From contig NZ_FOEE01000003.1 in the NCBI RefSeq assembly GCF_900110555.1, forward strand, positions 62,001 through 126,000: a stretch of DNA of 64,000 bases, read 5' to 3'. The notes beneath the pieces were generated by a model. The model ran no database searches, was not told the DNA's origin, and saw nothing but the letters and a program-made list of their open reading frames with translations. Of the stretch, positions 9,228-53,563 are shown one piece after another. The stretch comes from Trujillonella endophytica (GTDB lineage Bacteria; Actinomycetota; Actinomycetes; Mycobacteriales; Geodermatophilaceae). The position numbers were made by a program, and so were the translations under genes. Numbering within the stretch: position 1 is the first letter of the stretch; the number at the start of each line of letters is the position of its first letter.

Positions 9228-9233
9228 CGCCCC

Positions 9234-9329
9234 GGGCAGAAGCGCGAAATTGCCCCGGCGCAGAAGCGCGAAATTGCCCCGGCGCAGGAGCGCGGAACTG
9301 CCCCGGCGCAGAAGCGCGGAATTGCACGG
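9234..9329. repeat. Four tandem copies of a 24-bp repeat
   Basis: Units at 9234-9257, 9258-9281, 9282-9305 and 9306-9329. Each has the core GCGCAGAAGCGCG and then AATTGCCCCG or a close variant. Copies 1 and 2 are nearly identical; 3 and 4 carry a few substitutions. They lie between two convergent small genes. There are no spacers, so this is not CRISPR. Confidence 0.9.
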
Positions 9330-18815: not shown

Positions 18816-19493
18816 GTGACCCAACCGCCCGGCCCGCCCGGACCCTATGGCCAGCAGCCCCCCGGTCAGCCCCCCTACGGGCAACAGCCCCCGTACGGCC
18901 AGCAGCCCCCGTACGGCCAGCAGCCCCCGTACGGCCAGCAGTCGCCGTACGGCCCGCAGTACGGGCAGCCGCCGTACGGGCAGCCGCCCCGCAAGAACCG
19001 CACCGGCCTGATCGCGGCCATCGTGGCCGCCGTGGTGCTCGTCGCGGCCGGCGTCGTCACGTTCCTCCTGCTGAGCCAGGACGACGACGAGGACGGCGGG
19101 AGCAGCGCGACGAGCTCCAGCAGCAGCTCCAACTCCGGCTCCAGTTCCGGCTCCAGCTCCAGCTCCGGCTCCGGGGGCGACGAGGACGCCCTCGAGGCGG
19201 CCTGCGAGGTCGTCATCCCGGCGGTGGCGGAGGCCGGCGAGATGCTCAGCGACGACACCGACCTCGACACGGGCCTGGAGACGATCGAGCAGCTGGTGTC
19301 CACCATCCGGGGCGAGCTGGACCCCCTGCCGGAGCCGCAGCGCGGCCACATGGCGGACCTGGCCGACACCTACGAGCGCGCGGCGGCGCAGGCGAGCGGC
19401 GCCGAGCCCGCGGACGACGAGATCTCGGAGCAGATCTACGACGCCGAGGTGCTGGTGGCGCAGGACTGCGCCGAGGTGGGCGTGACGGCCTGA
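18816..19493 (+). CDS. Membrane-anchored protein with PPYGQQ repeats and Ser-rich linker
   Basis: I do not recognise a named family. The 225 residues comprise a cytosolic N-terminus with PPYGQQ repeats, a basic RKNR stop, one helix (LIAAIVAAVVLVAAGVVTFLLL), an acidic DDDED patch, a Ser/Gly linker and an outer helical domain of ~100 residues with two cysteines (AACEVVIP and AQDCAEVG) that may form a disulphide. Tyr/Gln/Pro/Gly-rich N-termini are common in actinobacterial membrane proteins. The GTG at 18816 is supported by TAGCGT seven bases upstream. It stands alone between the exporter and menF. Confidence 0.8.
   Translation: MTQPPGPPGPYGQQPPGQPPYGQQPPYGQQPPYGQQPPYGQQSPYGPQYGQPPYGQPPRKNRTGLIAAIVAAVVLVAAGVVTFLLLSQDDDEDGGSSATSSSSSSNSGSSSGSSSSSGSGGDEDALEAACEVVIPAVAEAGEMLSDDTDLDTGLETIEQLVSTIRGELDPLPEPQRGHMADLADTYERAAAQASGAEPADDEISEQIYDAEVLVAQDCAEVGVTA
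18891..18944 (+). repeat. In-gene 18-bp tandem repeat (three copies)
   Basis: Three consecutive 18-bp units coding PYGQQP, each beginning CCGTACGGCCAGCAG; the last unit ends TCG instead of CCC. More diverged copies flank them. They encode the low-complexity N-terminus of the host protein. Confidence 0.85.
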
Positions 19494-46075: not shown

Positions 46076-46948
46076 GTGCACCGCTGGACCAACGCCGTGA
46101 AGACGGCCCTGCTGCTGGGCCTGATGGGCGGGCTCATCCTCGCGGCGGGTGCGCTCATCGGCGGCCGGGGCGGGCTCGCCGTCGCCCTGGTGGTCGCGCT
46201 GGCCGTCAACGGGTTCGCGTACTTCAACTCCGACAAGCTCGCGCTGCGGGCGATGCGGGCGTTCCCCGTCACCGAGACCCAGGCCCCGCAGCTGTACGCG
46301 ATGGTGCGCGACCTGGCGACCGAGGCGCGCCAGCCCATGCCCCGGCTGTACGTCAGCCCGACCGAGCAGCCGAACGCCTTCGCCACCGGCCGCAATCCGC
46401 GCCGGGCCGCCGTGTGCTGCACCCAGGGCATCCTCGAGCTGCTCGACCGCCGCGAGCTGCGCGGCGTCCTGGCCCACGAGCTGTCCCACGTCTACAACCG
46501 CGACATCCTGATCAGCTCGGTGGCGGCCGCGATGGCCACGGTGATCACCTACCTGGCGCACATGGCGATGTTCGCCTCCCTGTTCGGCGGCCGGGCCGGC
46601 GACGACCGCGGGGGTGGCAACGCGCTCGGCGCCCTCCTGCTGGTCGTCCTCGGCCCGGTGGCCGCCGGACTGGTGCAGCTGGCGGTCAGCCGCAGCCGCG
46701 AGTACCAGGCCGACGCCACGGGCGCGCAGCTGTCGGGCGACCCGCTCGCGCTCGCGTCGGCGCTGCGCAAGATCGAACGCGGGGCGGGCGCCCGGCCACT
46801 GCCGCAGGAGGACCGGCTGGTCGCCCAGAGCCACCTGATGATCGCCAACCCGTTCCGCGGCCGGGGGCTGGCCACGTGGTTCGCCACCCATCCGCCGATG
46901 GCCGAGCGCATCGCCCGGCTGGAGCAGATGGCCGTGGACCGGTCCTAG
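46076..46948 (+). CDS. htpX: Zinc metalloprotease HtpX
   Basis: A membrane M48 protease for quality control of membrane proteins. It has 290 residues with two N-terminal helices ([36 protein letters not shown]), the zinc motif HELSH at residues 134-138, two more hydrophobic segments, and the third ligand in [26 protein letters not shown] is typical of HtpX. The GTG at 46076 gives the standard length. It is divergent from korA across a 222-base gap. Confidence 0.95.
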
Positions 46949-46951
46949 GCT
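46946..46951 (+). promoter_or_regulatory. Leaderless -10 hexamer overlapping the htpX stop
   Basis: TAGGCT begins with the htpX stop codon TAG and ends eight bases before the next GTG. Confidence 0.5.
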
Positions 46952-46959
46952 CGCCTCCC

Positions 46960-47757
46960 GTGCGGACGGGAAGCGGTGCGGTGCGGTTCGTGGCGGTGGG
47001 GGACAGCTTCACCGAGGGGGTCGGCGACGAGCTGGCCGACGGCGCGGTCCGTGGCTGGGCCGACCTGGTCGCCGGCGGGCTCGCCGCGGCCACCGACGGT
47101 CCGGTGCAGTACGCGAATCTCGCCGTCCGCGGCCGGCTGCTGGCACCGATCGTCACCGAGCAGGTCCCGGCGGCGCTGGGTCTGGCCCCGGCGCCCACGC
47201 TCCTCACCCTCAACGGCGGCGGCAACGACATCATGCGGCCCGGGGTCGACGCGCGGCGCCTGCTGGGGCTGACCGAGCAGGCGGTGGGCCGGGTCGTCGA
47301 GTCGGGCGTGCAGCTGGTGCTCATCAGCGGGGCGGACCCGTCGGGCCGGCTGCCGTTCGGCGCCACGATGCACCGCCGTGCCGCGCAGCTGACCGTCGCG
47401 CTGGAGGAGATCGCCGCCCGGCACGGCGCGACCTTCGTCAACGCCTTCGCCGACGCCGAGCTCCGCCGCGCCGGCTACTGGTCGCCCGACCGGCTCCACC
47501 TCGGCCCGGCCGGGCACCGGCGCGTGGCGTCGCTGGTGCTGGCGACGCTGGGCCACGACGTCGCCGCCGCGGCCGTCGACCCGGGGCCCGAGACCCCGCG
47601 CCGGCTGCGCGCCGAGGTCCGCTACTACCGCGAGCACGTGCTGCCGTGGCTGGGCCGCCACCTGCGCGGCCGCTCCTCCGGCGACGCGCGCACCGGCAAG
47701 CACCTGGACTGGGTGCCGGTCACGCCGGCCCCCGCGGGCACGGCTCCGCTGGCCTGA
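46960..47757 (+). CDS. SGNH/GDSL-family hydrolase
   Basis: A 265-residue esterase-fold protein. Block I is FVAVGDSFTEGVGDE (catalytic Ser), block III LNGGGNDIMRPG, and block V SPDRLHLGPAGHRRVA (catalytic Asp and His). No signal peptide is evident, so it is probably cytosolic. The substrate is unknown. A C-terminal ~60 residues (RRLRAEVRYYREHVLPWLGRH) is typical of actinobacterial members. The GTG at 46960 sits eight bases after TAGGCT; a GTG at 46981 is the alternative. Confidence 0.9.
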   Translation: MRTGSGAVRFVAVGDSFTEGVGDELADGAVRGWADLVAGGLAAATDGPVQYANLAVRGRLLAPIVTEQVPAALGLAPAPTLLTLNGGGNDIMRPGVDARRLLGLTEQAVGRVVESGVQLVLISGADPSGRLPFGATMHRRAAQLTVALEEIAARHGATFVNAFADAELRRAGYWSPDRLHLGPAGHRRVASLVLATLGHDVAAAAVDPGPETPRRLRAEVRYYREHVLPWLGRHLRGRSSGDARTGKHLDWVPVTPAPAGTAPLA

Positions 47758-47782
47758 GTCGCGCTTCCTGGGTCGTCGCGGC

Positions 47783-48208
47783 TCAGCCCAGCCGGTCGAG
47801 GACGTCCCGCGGGATCGGTGGGCCGAGCGGAACCACGGCGGGGACCGGCCGCAGGGCCCAGGGCGGCGGCTCGGTGCCGCGCGCCTCGGCGGCCATCCGG
47901 GCGAACTGGCGCTCGAACCCGGCCGGGGTGCACACCAGCAGGTACCGCGCGGGGGCGTCGCGGCGGTTCGCGAGCGCGTGCGCGGCGCCGCGCGGGGCGA
48001 AGGCCAGCTGCCCGGGGGTCCGGACGACCAGGTCCTCGCCCACACGGAACACCAGCTCACCGTCCAGGACGTAGAAGGCCTCATCGAAGTCGTGCCGGTG
48101 CAGCGGCGGTCCTGCGCTGCGCGGCGGGACGACGTTCTCGACGAGGGACACGGCGCCGCCGGTCTCCTCGCTGCGCAGGAGGACGGTGCTGCGGAGATCG
48201 TGAGTCAC
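47783..48208 (-). CDS. Cupin domain-containing protein
   Basis: A 141-residue single-domain cupin. Motif 1 is PPLHRHDFDEAFYVLDGELVFRVG (in part: LHRHDFDEAFYVLDGE), with two His and a Glu for metal binding; motif 2 is PRGAAHALANRRD. The rest is a C-terminal helix pair. Enzyme or sensor cannot be told apart. The GTG start at 48208 is divergent from an ECF sigma factor gene 110 bases away, so it may belong to that regulon (inference). Confidence 0.85.
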   Translation of the reverse strand: MTHDLRSTVLLRSEETGGAVSLVENVVPPRSAGPPLHRHDFDEAFYVLDGELVFRVGEDLVVRTPGQLAFAPRGAAHALANRRDAPARYLLVCTPAGFERQFARMAAEARGTEPPPWALRPVPAVVPLGPPIPRDVLDRLG

Positions 48209-50417: not shown

Positions 50418-50761
50418 GCGGCGCAGCGTAGGTGGCCGTCCACCGGTTGTGGACAGGGCTGGGGACGGGTGTGGACGACGGACCTCGTACCCGCGCGTCC
50501 CATGGGCACCACCTGTGGACGGTGCGCCAGATCCCAAAGGCCCCGTTCGTCACGCAAATGGATGACCCACACGTGAACTTCTGTGACACACCGTAACGAC
50601 ATAACGGTTCGTCACTCTCTCGTGATTGTCGGTGCTTGCCCCGTTCGGGTGACGGGAAGCAATGTCCCGGGTGCGGTCCGTACACCGAATGACGCTCTGT
50701 CCCCGCGCCCCGGGTGCCAGCCCGCATCGAAGAAACAGTTCTTCATGCCTGAGGAGGCGTC
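50418..50761. other. Intergenic region with AT-richer segment upstream of the GRGTMW peptide
   Basis: These 344 bases carry no gene I can support. The minus-strand TACGCT of the TadE-like gene is at 50425-50430. A segment at about 50545-50625 is visibly richer in A and T than its surroundings and contains TAACG steps, the likely place for a plus-strand promoter. GAGGAGG at 50752-50758 is the ribosome-binding site of the peptide. Confidence 0.5.
50425..50430 (-). promoter_or_regulatory. Leaderless -10 hexamer of the TadE/TadG-like gene
   Basis: TACGCT on the minus strand, seven bases before the GTG. Confidence 0.5.
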
Positions 50762-50872
50762 ATGAGCACGCAGCGTGGAACGGGTCGCGGGACGATGTGG
50801 GGTCGCGGGACGATGTGGGGCCGCGGGACGATGTGGGGCCGCGGCACCATGTGGGGTCGCCAGGCGGGCTGA
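50762..50872 (+). CDS. 36-residue peptide with four GRGTMW repeats
   Basis: A short gene: the first eight residues are MSTQRGTG-like (MSTQRGT then G of the first repeat), followed by GRGTMW four times and a GRQAG end. The ATG follows GAGGAGG by three bases plus a short spacer (50752-50758). The four 18-base units differ from one another only at third codon positions (GGT/GGC, GGG/GGC, ACG/ACC), always silently, which supports translation. The peptide is basic, rich in Gly, Arg, Thr, Met and Trp, and has no signal peptide or leader. I do not recognise the family. Two strong hairpins follow, so it is probably a separate transcript from the EAL gene. Confidence 0.6.
   Translation: MSTQRGTGRGTMWGRGTMWGRGTMWGRGTMWGRQAG
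50783..50854 (+). repeat. 18-bp tandem repeat, four copies, coding GRGTMW
   Basis: Units 50783-50800, 50801-50818, 50819-50836 and 50837-50854. Copies 1 and 2 are identical; copy 3 has one silent change and copy 4 has three. Confidence 0.92.
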
Positions 50873-50877
50873 GCGCT

Positions 50878-50903
50878 CGCCGGGGGGGTGTCTCCCCCCG
50901 GCG
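50878..50903 (+). terminator. First hairpin after the GRGTMW peptide
   Basis: A perfect 10-bp stem (50878-50887 with 50894-50903) and a six-base loop, beginning five bases after the stop codon. Confidence 0.7.
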
Positions 50904-50912
50904 CCTCGAGCT

Positions 50913-50941
50913 GGGGTGGTCGGCCCGGTGCCGACCACCCC
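50913..50941 (+). terminator. Second hairpin after the GRGTMW peptide
   Basis: A perfect 12-bp stem (50913-50924 with 50930-50941) and a five-base loop; a small CCCC-TTC-GGGG hairpin overlaps its end. The stacked hairpins should separate the peptide from the downstream EAL gene. Confidence 0.65.
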
Positions 50942-51010
50942 CTTCGGGGTGCTCACGTTCCCCGGCGTGCTCACGCGCTGTTAGCCTCGGCGCCGCTCTA
51001 GTCCCTCCAA

Positions 51011-53563
51011 GTGAGTCGGGTGCCGGTGACCATCTCCGAGGCTGCGCGCGCGGGATCAGCGAGGCCTCTCCCGCTGCCCGCCGTCGCCCTGGTGGGCGGG
51101 TCGCTGGCCGCCGTGCTGGCCGCCCTCGTCTTCCCCTTCGCGCCGGCCGGGCTGCAGTGGATGCCGCTGCTGCTCGTCACCGTCGCGTTCGTGATCACGG
51201 AGAGTGTCCAGCTCCGGTTCGACTTCCGGCAGCAGACCGTCCGCTGCTCGGTCAGCGAGCTCGGCCTGGCCATCGGCCTGGTGCACCTCGGCGGCGTCTG
51301 GATCGCCGTCGCCCGGATCCTGGCCCTCGCCGTCACCTTCGTCCTGCGGCCGTACTCCCCGGTCAAGGCCTGCTACAACGCCGCGGTCGCGGTCGTGGAG
51401 GCCGCCGTCGCCGTCGCCGTCCTGGCGCTCCTTCCCTTCCCGGCGCTGACCGAGCCGGTGGCGTGGGTGTCGCTCGCGGTCGCCGTCCTCGTCGGCGACA
51501 TCGCCAGCGCCTCGATGGTCGGCCTGGCCATCCGCCTCACCGGCGGCCGGCCGGGGCGGCAGTACTGGCAGGAGCAGCTGCTGCCGATGGTCGCCGTCGG
51601 CCCCTTCGCAGTCTCCGTCGCCATCGTCGCCATGCTGCTGGTGCCCCTCACCGCGTGGGCCGCGGTGCTCATGCTCCCGGTCGCCGCCGCGGTCGTGCTG
51701 CTGTTCCGGCGGTTCGCCGCGGTCTCGCACGAGCGGCGCACCGTCGAGCAGGTCTACGACTTCGCTCGCCGGATCGAGGGCCTGAGCCCCGACGCCGCCG
51801 GCACCCACGAGCTGGTCGCCGCCGTGCGGGAGCTGCTGAACGCCGAGCGGGTCGCCCTGTGGCTGCCGCCGTACCTGGACCAGGAGCCGCGCCTGGTCGT
51901 CGACGCGGAGGACGGCGTGGCCTGGTACGACGGCCCCGGCGACCCCGAGGACCTGATCCGCCGGCGCGCCGTGGACCCGGGGGCCGTGGGCCCCGTCCTC
52001 GTCGCCGCGACCCGCGCGGACGGTGCCGAGCAGGCGGCGCTGGGCCGCCGCGGCGCCCACGAGGTGCTCGGTGCGCCCGTGGCGACCGCCGCCGGCGAGC
52101 CCGGCTACCTCGAGGTGTGCGACCGGCGCAGCGACCTGGTCAGCTTCGCCGACGACGAGCGCGCCGCCCTCGACTCGATGCTCACGCACGTCAACGCGGC
52201 GATCCGGCAGCAGCAGCTGCTCACCCAGATCCGCTACGACGCCGACCACGACCGGCTCACCGGCCTGCCCAACCGGCAGCGGCTGGTGGCCGAGATCGAT
52301 CAGCTGCTGGCGGCCGATCCCGCCACTACGCGCGCGGGGCTGATCCTCGCCTCGCTGGCCAACCACACGGAGATCGTCGACACCCTGGGGCACGCCGCCA
52401 GCGACGAACTGCTGCTGGTGACGGCGGGGCTCCTGCGCGAGCACGCGCCGCCCCAGGCCGTGCTGGCCCGGATGGAGGGCGAGCAGTTCGCGGTCCTGCT
52501 GCCCGGGCTGTCCCTGGCCGCCACCGAGCGGGCCGCCCGGCGGCTGCGCGAGGCGACCTCCACCCGCGCCCGGGTGGCCGGCCTGGACCTCGAGGTCTCG
52601 CTGACCATCGGCGTCGCCGCCGCTCCGGTGCACGGCATGGATTCCGGAACGCTGATGCAGCGGGCCGACGTCGCGCTGCTCGCGGGCGCCGCGGGCAAGG
52701 GCGTGGCCAGCTACCACCCGGTGCTGGACCAGCAGAGCCTGCGTCGCCTGCAGCTGGGCACGGAGATCGAGCAGGCCATGGCCGACGGCCAGATCACCGT
52801 GGTGTTCCAGCCGATCATCGACGCCCGGACATCCGACATCGTCTCCGTGGAGACGCTCGTGCGGTGGGCCCATCCCCGCTACGGCGCCGTGGCCCCGGAC
52901 GAGTTCATCCACCTCGCCGAGCAGATCGGCCGCATCGGGCCGCTCACCGACCACGTCCTGGACCTCGCCCTGGCGCGCTGCCGGCGCTGGCTGGACCAGG
53001 ACATCTCGCTGTCGGTGTCGGTCAACCTCTCCGCGCGCTGCCTGACCGAGCCCGACCTGGTCGAGCGGGTGGCGCGTGCCCTGCGCCGGCACGGCGTGCC
53101 GGGGGAGCTGCTGATCCTGGAGCTGACCGAGGGCAGCGTGGTCGACGACTCGGTCCGCAGCAGCACGGTCCTCGCCGACCTGCACGCCCTCGGGCTGCGG
53201 CTGTCGATGGACGACTTCGGCACCGGCTACTCGTCCCTGTCCCAGCTGAGGCAGCTGCCGATCGACGAGGTGAAGATCGACAAGTCCTTCGTGCTCGGCA
53301 TGTCCACGAGCCAGGGCGAGTCCTTCATCGCCCGGTCGATCATCGAGCTGGCCCACAACCTCGGCCTGCGGGTGGTGGCCGAGGGCGTCGAGGACGAGCT
53401 CACGCGCAACGCGCTGGCCGAGATGGGGTGCGACAAGCTGCAGGGCTTCCTGGTCAGTCGCCCGCTGGCCGACGACCGGCTGGAGAGCTGGCTGCTGACG
53501 CGGGCGGGCGTCCGGTCGGCGGCGCCCGGGGCCACCCACCGGCGGCTGTTCGTCCGCGCGTGA
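51011..53563 (+). CDS. Membrane GGDEF/EAL protein, probable cyclic di-GMP phosphodiesterase
   Basis: An 850-residue protein. Residues ~20-240 form about seven to eight helices (MASE-like sensor), ~250-400 a GAF-like soluble domain, ~405-570 a GGDEF domain starting DADHDRLTGLPNR, and ~595-830 an EAL domain. The cyclase signature is degenerate (RMEGEQF in place of GGDEF). The phosphodiesterase signature is ETLVRWAHP with other key residues intact: NLSARCL, ELTEGS, DDFGTGYSSL, KIDKSFV and AEGVED. It likely degrades cyclic di-GMP and may bind GTP without making it. The GTG at 51011 has no clear ribosome-binding site; GTG 51020 or 51026 are alternatives. Confidence 0.92.
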   Translation: MSRVPVTISEAARAGSARPLPLPAVALVGGSLAAVLAALVFPFAPAGLQWMPLLLVTVAFVITESVQLRFDFRQQTVRCSVSELGLAIGLVHLGGVWIAVARILALAVTFVLRPYSPVKACYNAAVAVVEAAVAVAVLALLPFPALTEPVAWVSLAVAVLVGDIASASMVGLAIRLTGGRPGRQYWQEQLLPMVAVGPFAVSVAIVAMLLVPLTAWAAVLMLPVAAAVVLLFRRFAAVSHERRTVEQVYDFARRIEGLSPDAAGTHELVAAVRELLNAERVALWLPPYLDQEPRLVVDAEDGVAWYDGPGDPEDLIRRRAVDPGAVGPVLVAATRADGAEQAALGRRGAHEVLGAPVATAAGEPGYLEVCDRRSDLVSFADDERAALDSMLTHVNAAIRQQQLLTQIRYDADHDRLTGLPNRQRLVAEIDQLLAADPATTRAGLILASLANHTEIVDTLGHAASDELLLVTAGLLREHAPPQAVLARMEGEQFAVLLPGLSLAATERAARRLREATSTRARVAGLDLEVSLTIGVAAAPVHGMDSGTLMQRADVALLAGAAGKGVASYHPVLDQQSLRRLQLGTEIEQAMADGQITVVFQPIIDARTSDIVSVETLVRWAHPRYGAVAPDEFIHLAEQIGRIGPLTDHVLDLALARCRRWLDQDISLSVSVNLSARCLTEPDLVERVARALRRHGVPGELLILELTEGSVVDDSVRSSTVLADLHALGLRLSMDDFGTGYSSLSQLRQLPIDEVKIDKSFVLGMSTSQGESFIARSIIELAHNLGLRVVAEGVEDELTRNALAEMGCDKLQGFLVSRPLADDRLESWLLTRAGVRSAAPGATHRRLFVRA

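Follow-up and report, generated by a model that had tools for sequence, protein, structure and literature searches.

The gene studied here encodes a 36-residue peptide and lies in a window, the whole stretch of DNA analysed, of 64,000 nucleotides (nt) from Trujillonella endophytica (assembly GCF_900110555.1, contig NZ_FOEE01000003.1, positions 62,001 to 126,000 of the forward strand). The peptide carries tandem tryptophan-containing units (W-units), and the next gene encodes a membrane protein with GGDEF and EAL domains. The feature is a real gene, and comparison among relatives suggests that this tiny peptide gene and the sensor half of the neighbouring cyclic di-GMP (c-di-GMP) enzyme form a so far undescribed peptide-receptor pair. 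The two genes are arranged in the window as follows:

50762..50872, + strand: open reading frame (ORF) of the W-repeat peptide, 36 residues, translation MSTQRGTGRGTMWGRGTMWGRGTMWGRGTMWGRQAG*, with orthologues in relatives.
50786..50857, + strand: four identical units RGTMWG, exact hexapeptides in an 18-nt tandem array (Tandem Repeats Finder score 130).
51011..53563, + strand: protein with a membrane S-component-like domain, GAF, degenerate GGDEF and EAL (Pfam, structure prediction, catalytic residues), the proposed receptor and effector.
51092..51841, + strand: N-terminal sensor domain of this protein, residues 28-277, co-variable with the peptide units (predicted structure).

Orthologues were collected in Geodermatophilaceae by relative searches and by a named scan covering mostly Blastococcus, Geodermatophilus, Modestobacter and Klenkia, which together yielded the orthologous GGDEF/EAL gene at 146 loci, counting duplicates between collections. 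A script found the peptide at 141 of these, which collapsed to 96 distinct loci; the five peptide-less loci had other W-repeat proteins (L086, L087), were near a contig edge (L088, L212) or had another EAL gene (L089). At 92 of the 96 distinct loci, at least two tandem units R-x-x-[K/R]-W-x lay directly 5' of the GGDEF/EAL gene, with 2-5 units per peptide. At the four others the script found one hexamer; by eye, two of these peptides (L072, L219) have a 7-residue and a 6-residue unit and two (L081, L082) are degenerate. The first unit had 7 residues in L072, L074, L077, L192 and L219. Frame loss and indels in relatives, named in the preliminary description of this DNA as signs against the gene, were looked for in the syntenic loci, and the frame was kept throughout; length differences were whole units, save in L064 (+1 residue), L124 (+4 residues) and the five peptides with a 7-residue first unit. 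Nearly all of the peptides (95/96) had at most 42 residues, the exception being a 59-residue reading in L231 with a probably wrong start, and no hydrophobic leader was seen by eye in the peptides collected. The net charge was at least +4 in 95/96, and 84/96 contained three or four Trp.

Reading the window DNA bore out the earlier statement that its four 18-base units differ by silent changes only. The same description took GRGTMW for the conserved element, which did not hold, for R...W is what is conserved and 56 different hexamers were found between species. In the first units (n = 92), W was present in 92 and R in 88, residue 4 was K in 52, R in 36, S in 3 and M in 1, and residue 3 was occupied by 14 different amino acids. 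Within a peptide, all units were identical in 86 of the 92.

The peptide and its leader were without match to any Pfam, NCBIfam or Rfam family; at gathering scores Rfam gave no match at the gene, and at E 10 weak chance-like matches fell on the hairpins alone. The first protein search gave matches in 74/96 genomes at E 1, many of which arose by chance or read this locus in antisense. With a hidden Markov model of the hexamer family, run on 397 genomes of the order and 394 of the class, the out-of-family matches inspected (L148-L150, L152-L155 and L157-L165) were rejected; they resemble chance alternative frames of GC-rich ORFs. The units differ between the two homologous GGDEF/EAL loci (L085/L176, L090/L177) of one metagenome-assembled genome (MAG; G023), being RNGRWG and RAGRWG. 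In addition, a typical Geodermatophilaceae locus (L204) stands on a contig whose title, 'UNVERIFIED_ORG: Bacillus sp. AZ43', looks wrong.

The sensor domain is predicted to have the fold of an energy-coupling factor (ECF) S-component, a ligand-binding membrane fold. The AlphaFold2 model of residues 28-277 had a pLDDT (predicted local distance difference test) of 91.2, and VIA-align placed ECF S/M components at all of ranks 1-21. Taken by itself, Foldseek had no PDB match under E 0.001, its best being RibU (probability 1.00, E 0.015). Further, none of 61 scanned members matched PF07694 (5TMR_LYT) at E 0.01, and one of the 61 matched ECF_trnsprt (PF12822) weakly.

Comparison of the loci shows, at the level of sequence, that the unit type and the sensor domain (approximately the first 250 residues) are replaced together, while similarity persists in the leader and the catalytic half. 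YajQ was used as the clock in 44 loci, since the catalytic half was too conserved for its divergence to serve. In 14 independent pairs with different unit cores, the divergence was 49% in residues 64-250, 22% in GAF, 11% in GGDEF and 7% in EAL; in seven pairs with the same core, the values were 12%, 7%, 5% and 3%, respectively, the different-unit pairs being somewhat farther apart by YajQ (0.247 vs. 0.145 at 4-fold sites). Relative to YajQ, the excess divergence had a p of 0.0014 in the N-terminal part and of 0.36 in the catalytic part. Among pairs with catalytic halves at most 4% different, an N-terminal divergence of at least 40% (mosaics) was found in 64 of 87 with different hexamers and in 0 of 14 with the same hexamer. 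The nucleotide identities of 11 mosaic pairs and seven same-unit pairs, hand-picked and with one further same-unit pair left out, followed this pattern along the locus: upstream 0.73 and 0.81 (mosaic) vs. 0.76 and 0.84 (same-unit), leader 0.90 vs. 0.95, peptide to residue 250 0.56-0.68 vs. 0.85-0.89, GAF 0.80 vs. 0.92, and catalytic half 0.93-0.95 vs. 0.92-0.95. Moreover, the eight different-hexamer pairs with the least N-terminal divergence (<0.22) had conservative unit changes, namely I/L, K/R and S/T. Co-variation with the receptor at the level of single residues was borderline or confounded by phylogeny.

The preliminary description had offered a link to c-di-GMP as a possibility. The tie between the peptide gene and the GGDEF/EAL gene stands, and the EAL neighbour is probably no coincidence, because the peptide co-varies with the membrane sensor domain of the EAL protein and because homologous GGDEF/EAL genes in several other families likewise adjoin W-repeat proteins. 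The window peptide is the smallest form of this wider W-repeat family upstream of one subtype of GGDEF/EAL gene, in which three forms were found: a leaderless peptide, a peptide with a signal peptide, and a subtilase (Peptidase_S8, PF00082) with a W-repeat tail. Among 20 genes sharing the homologous N-terminal domain, one script detected a W-repeat within 2 kb upstream of 13, six of these (L258, L259, L261, L263, L264, L265) chosen after the repeat was known, vs. 0 of 20 other GGDEF/EAL genes; of eight paralogous Geodermatophilaceae loci that had not been inspected beforehand, six were positive. In a class-wide search, 54 of 394 genomes matched at E 1e-115, some in the catalytic half alone. 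A W-repeat was present at 12 of the 30 class-wide loci listed, three of these positives (L293, L312, L316) being known beforehand, and five of the other 18 had less than 300 nt of upstream sequence. The automated positives of the two screens fell in the families labelled f1, f9, f23, f27, f28, f43 and f46.

The repeats themselves were diverse. Leaderless peptides of other families contained DGGSWTFA four times and DGNTWTFV five times (L167, L168), GALWG occurred twice at L169, and deep Geodermatophilaceae MAGs had GVSWN and TAWNG repeats. S8 proteins with signal-like N-termini (by eye) ended in a GLRWN, GSSWR, GAGWR, SGVSW or SARTWRDDSW repeat. Signal-peptide proteins with a single W motif were found at L170 and L171, and L172 had no W-motif protein of such kind upstream. 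A signal-peptide protein at L315, uncounted by the script, ends in GTRWGSADRGTRWG, near the unit of the window. At L251, L252, L254-L261 and L263, the W-repeat forms an exact or near-exact tail on an S8 subtilase encoded directly 5' of an S-component-type GGDEF/EAL gene; such loci are paralogous loci of Geodermatophilaceae and loci of another family (f43). When 9 and 7 S8 proteins were scanned (Pfam, NCBIfam), the matches listed missed the tail, save for a GETHR pentapeptide-repeat match in L259. In the window's own genome, one query at E 1e-10 gave no W-repeat subtilase, an empty result that is no proof of absence.

The number of units was related to their composition. Peptides with more units had a less hydrophobic residue 3 (Spearman 0.66; p 6e-13 over 92 loci and p 5e-6 over 39 unit types), and the nearest contrasting pairs were 29 to 8 in this direction. 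In two-unit peptides, as counted by the script, residue 3 was W, F, L, I or V, with one S that had I at residue 2; in four- and five-unit peptides it was T, G, A, N or S, with one V. Such a trade-off between unit number and hydrophobicity would fit a fixed total affinity.

We put at about even the chance that the W-repeat peptide is a ligand co-inherited with, and cognate to, the membrane sensor of the adjacent GGDEF/EAL protein and sets the phosphodiesterase activity of this protein. The gene would yield a short, cationic, multivalent peptide, which would bind the sensor domain of the neighbouring protein and thereby set c-di-GMP phosphodiesterase activity, with a membrane side and a sign of effect that we infer. 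Several units may give avidity, and allelic types ('pherotypes') would presumably arise as cells respond solely to their own unit. Binding of nucleic acids or nucleotides, suggested in the preliminary description, found nothing in its favour in the analyses run. It is possible, and proposed more tentatively, that a species-specific recognition code operates in soil and stone actinobacteria, in which tandem W-units would be multivalent ligands, whether borne on a small leaderless peptide, on one that is secreted or on the tail of a subtilase. An S-component-like receptor would read them and directly control c-di-GMP breakdown, the units and the receptor half being swapped as a polymorphic cassette and the unit number tuned against hydrophobicity. 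Several observations weigh against these proposals. The chief difficulty for a ligand is that the Geodermatophilaceae peptides have no evident signal peptide. Against a strict code, a hexamer may be shared across genera despite dissimilar sensor domains, and L071/L070 and L106/L122 share a hexamer at an N-terminal divergence of 0.33-0.39.

The alternative that fares best, though unlikely, is a multi-copy precursor whose cleavage would set free several copies of one short signal peptide, pheromone-like or resembling ribosomally synthesized and post-translationally modified peptides (RiPPs). Units identical inside a species and different between species would be expected of it, as would the repeat versions with a signal peptide elsewhere (L087, L315) and the exported subtilase linked at other loci. 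However, no modifying enzyme, maturation protease or peptide exporter was found among 12 window proteins scanned with Pfam, a signal peptide is not evident, and a precursor would not need the trade-off between hydrophobicity and unit number.

The identity of the units was also examined at the silent positions. Between the units of one peptide there were 432 silent and 13 replacement codon changes in 300 unit pairs (silent divergence, pS, 0.43; replacement divergence, pN, 0.0055), and 51 of the 300 pairs were identical over 15 nt. This pN/pS of about 0.013 agrees with the earlier proposal that the peptide itself is under selection. The silent positions of R and G codons were near saturation within peptides (0.532 vs. 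0.60-0.68 at saturation). In the seven closest species pairs with different units, silent divergence was 44/60 within a peptide and 17/36 between same-index units of sisters, as would be expected had the units all changed jointly and none been copied. The same contrast was weak over 18 sister pairs (128/193 vs. 55/94), and a permutation test of whether units keep their index between sister species that differ in unit was non-significant (96/161 vs. 93.3 expected, p 0.29). Selection for matching units is therefore likely, and short conversion remains an alternative to such selection. A further alternative is that of a minisatellite, where slippage and conversion alone homogenise the array, identical units arise as a side effect and R...W spacing is all that the peptide requires. 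This appears quite unlikely to us: the variable repeat number, the permutation test and the barely raised within-peptide divergence over the 18 pairs fit it, but the near saturation inside peptides and the seven closest pairs do not, Ser TCN and AGY codons are mixed inside L101 and L125 (position 3) and L079 and L080 (position 6), and the co-variation with the sensor domain would be left unexplained.

An antimicrobial-like cationic Trp/Arg peptide, with the membrane domain as sensor or immunity protein and antagonistic diversification as in bacteriocin-immunity pairs, would account for the charge and Trp content, for the trade-off of hydrophobicity and number, and for the co-variation with a membrane domain. 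It is nevertheless very unlikely, since neither an export gene nor a signal peptide was seen, a c-di-GMP phosphodiesterase forms part of the partner protein, and the gene is retained in nearly all examined loci of one family.

The expression signals around the peptide gene are the following:

50636..50665, + strand: promoter-like element of the peptide gene, TTGCCC (50636-50641), 18-nt spacer, CAATGT (50660-50665), in conserved alignment columns.
50670..50709, + strand: 5' leader block 1, stem GCGG/CCGC (50673-50676 with 50703-50706), interior ...ACGCTCTGYCCCC strongly conserved in alignments.
50710..50744, + strand: second hairpin region of the 5' leader, with covarying arms in relatives.
50745..50760, + strand: small hairpin ATGCCT-GAGG-AGGCGT, enclosing the Shine-Dalgarno sequence GAGGAGG (50751-50757).
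50878..50903, + strand: 10-bp hairpin, terminator-like (sequence).
50913..50941, + strand: 12-bp hairpin, terminator-like (sequence).
50979..50988, + strand: promoter-like TGTTAGCCTC of the GGDEF/EAL gene (motif counts in relatives).

The Shine-Dalgarno sequence before the ATG and the two perfect stems after the stop (50878-50887/50894-50903 and 50913-50924/50930-50941) are present as first reported. The promoter role and start site of the TTGCCC/CAATGT element are putative. The leader motif GCTCTGYCCCYGCR occurred in 91/96 loci, a ribosome-binding site in 95/96 and a TGA stop in 95/96. Leader hairpin arms covary in relatives (GACTGC/GCAGTC, GACAGC/GCTGTC, GGCTG/CAGCC), the window's own best stem being different, and the best stem exceeded the shuffled mean in 75 of 93 scored leaders. 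A loose TGYTA-type motif lay within 327 nt past the stop in 94/96 loci and the stricter CTGYTAGCST in 68/96, with no shuffle control for either count. The peptide mRNA is probably monocistronic, because the hairpins and then the promoter-like motif of the EAL gene follow the stop. An attenuator leader peptide for the EAL gene, relying on Trp/Arg codons or on stalling of the nascent chain and using the hairpins as terminator and antiterminator, is very unlikely despite its upstream position, terminator-like hairpins and structured, conserved leader, for a separate promoter-like motif lies past the hairpins at most loci, the hairpin sequences are not fixed among relatives, unit residues vary between species, and W-repeats elsewhere are tails of exported proteases.

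The neighbouring genes are as first described, a divergent Tad gene (PF13400) and the downstream GGDEF/EAL gene being identified by the Pfam scan. On one side of the peptide gene, the window has Cupin, a sigma-70-type gene, YajQ and the divergent Tad gene, with a tRNA; on the other are the membrane-GAF-GGDEF-EAL gene, tRNAs, ribosomal protein L33, two MaoC-type genes, SecE and NusG. Of the 12 scanned proteins (Cupin, sigma-70 type, DUF520/YajQ, Tad, GGDEF/EAL, L33, two MaoC-type, SecE and NusG among them), two were matchless, the peptide and the protein at 46945-48081. In the distinct loci, L33 was downstream in 89/96 (53/53 where the sequence extended far enough), the divergent Tad gene upstream in 59/96 (54/67 with at least 2.5 kb upstream) and YajQ upstream in 48/96 (44/67 likewise). 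In a deep MAG genus, g8 (L086-L088, L166, L173-L175), a Tad-like gene is downstream of the GGDEF/EAL gene, not upstream. Partly conserved GTGAC/GTCAC-type motifs occur at 50580-50640, in the upstream region shared by the Tad and peptide genes, and could be a regulator site. The window also has a 24-nt tandem array at 9229-9325 (4.1 copies, score 159) and an 18-nt one at 18867-18959 (5.2 copies, score 144).

To our knowledge, the signals controlling c-di-GMP enzymes are mostly unknown, and for one such enzyme a ligand and a receptor domain are now suggested by genome comparison alone. The natural variants in Geodermatophilaceae are ready for swap experiments, and selection for identity among units could be studied cleanly in these repeats, which match in residues but have diverged silently. 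The W-repeat subtilases indicate a wider actinobacterial module, of which literature searches turned up no description; among the matches listed, judged by titles and abstract openings, the peptide and the W-repeat/GGDEF-EAL link were likewise undescribed.

The proposed peptide-receptor pair is of a known kind in its possible mode of working, and its sequence family matches none that could be tested. Fusions of S-component-like receptor domains with GGDEF and EAL have been described (PMC11109136, in excerpt). The 5TMR-LYT-type (PF07694) receptors resemble the window protein in a predicted S-component fold on GAF-GGDEF-EAL; they differ in that window-type members lack a PF07694 match (E 0.01), and the excerpt of PMC11109136 mentions no linked variable peptide. 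In ComX/ComP, the N-terminal membrane domain of the receptor is highly variable and the cytoplasmic part is conserved, according to an excerpt of PMC4008528. ComQXPA, as excerpted there, is similar to our locus in that a small peptide gene adjoins a membrane receptor gene with a variable membrane half and a conserved cytoplasmic or catalytic half. However, no ComQ-like modifying enzyme was found among the scanned window neighbours, the window peptide has tandem matching W-units and no evident signal peptide, and the receptor output is a c-di-GMP enzyme and not a histidine kinase; the likeness is one of pattern, and no homology is claimed. Compared with the subtilases, the W-repeat is at other loci the tail of an S8 protein directly 5' of the homologous gene, whereas the main Geodermatophilaceae loci carry the repeat peptide alone.
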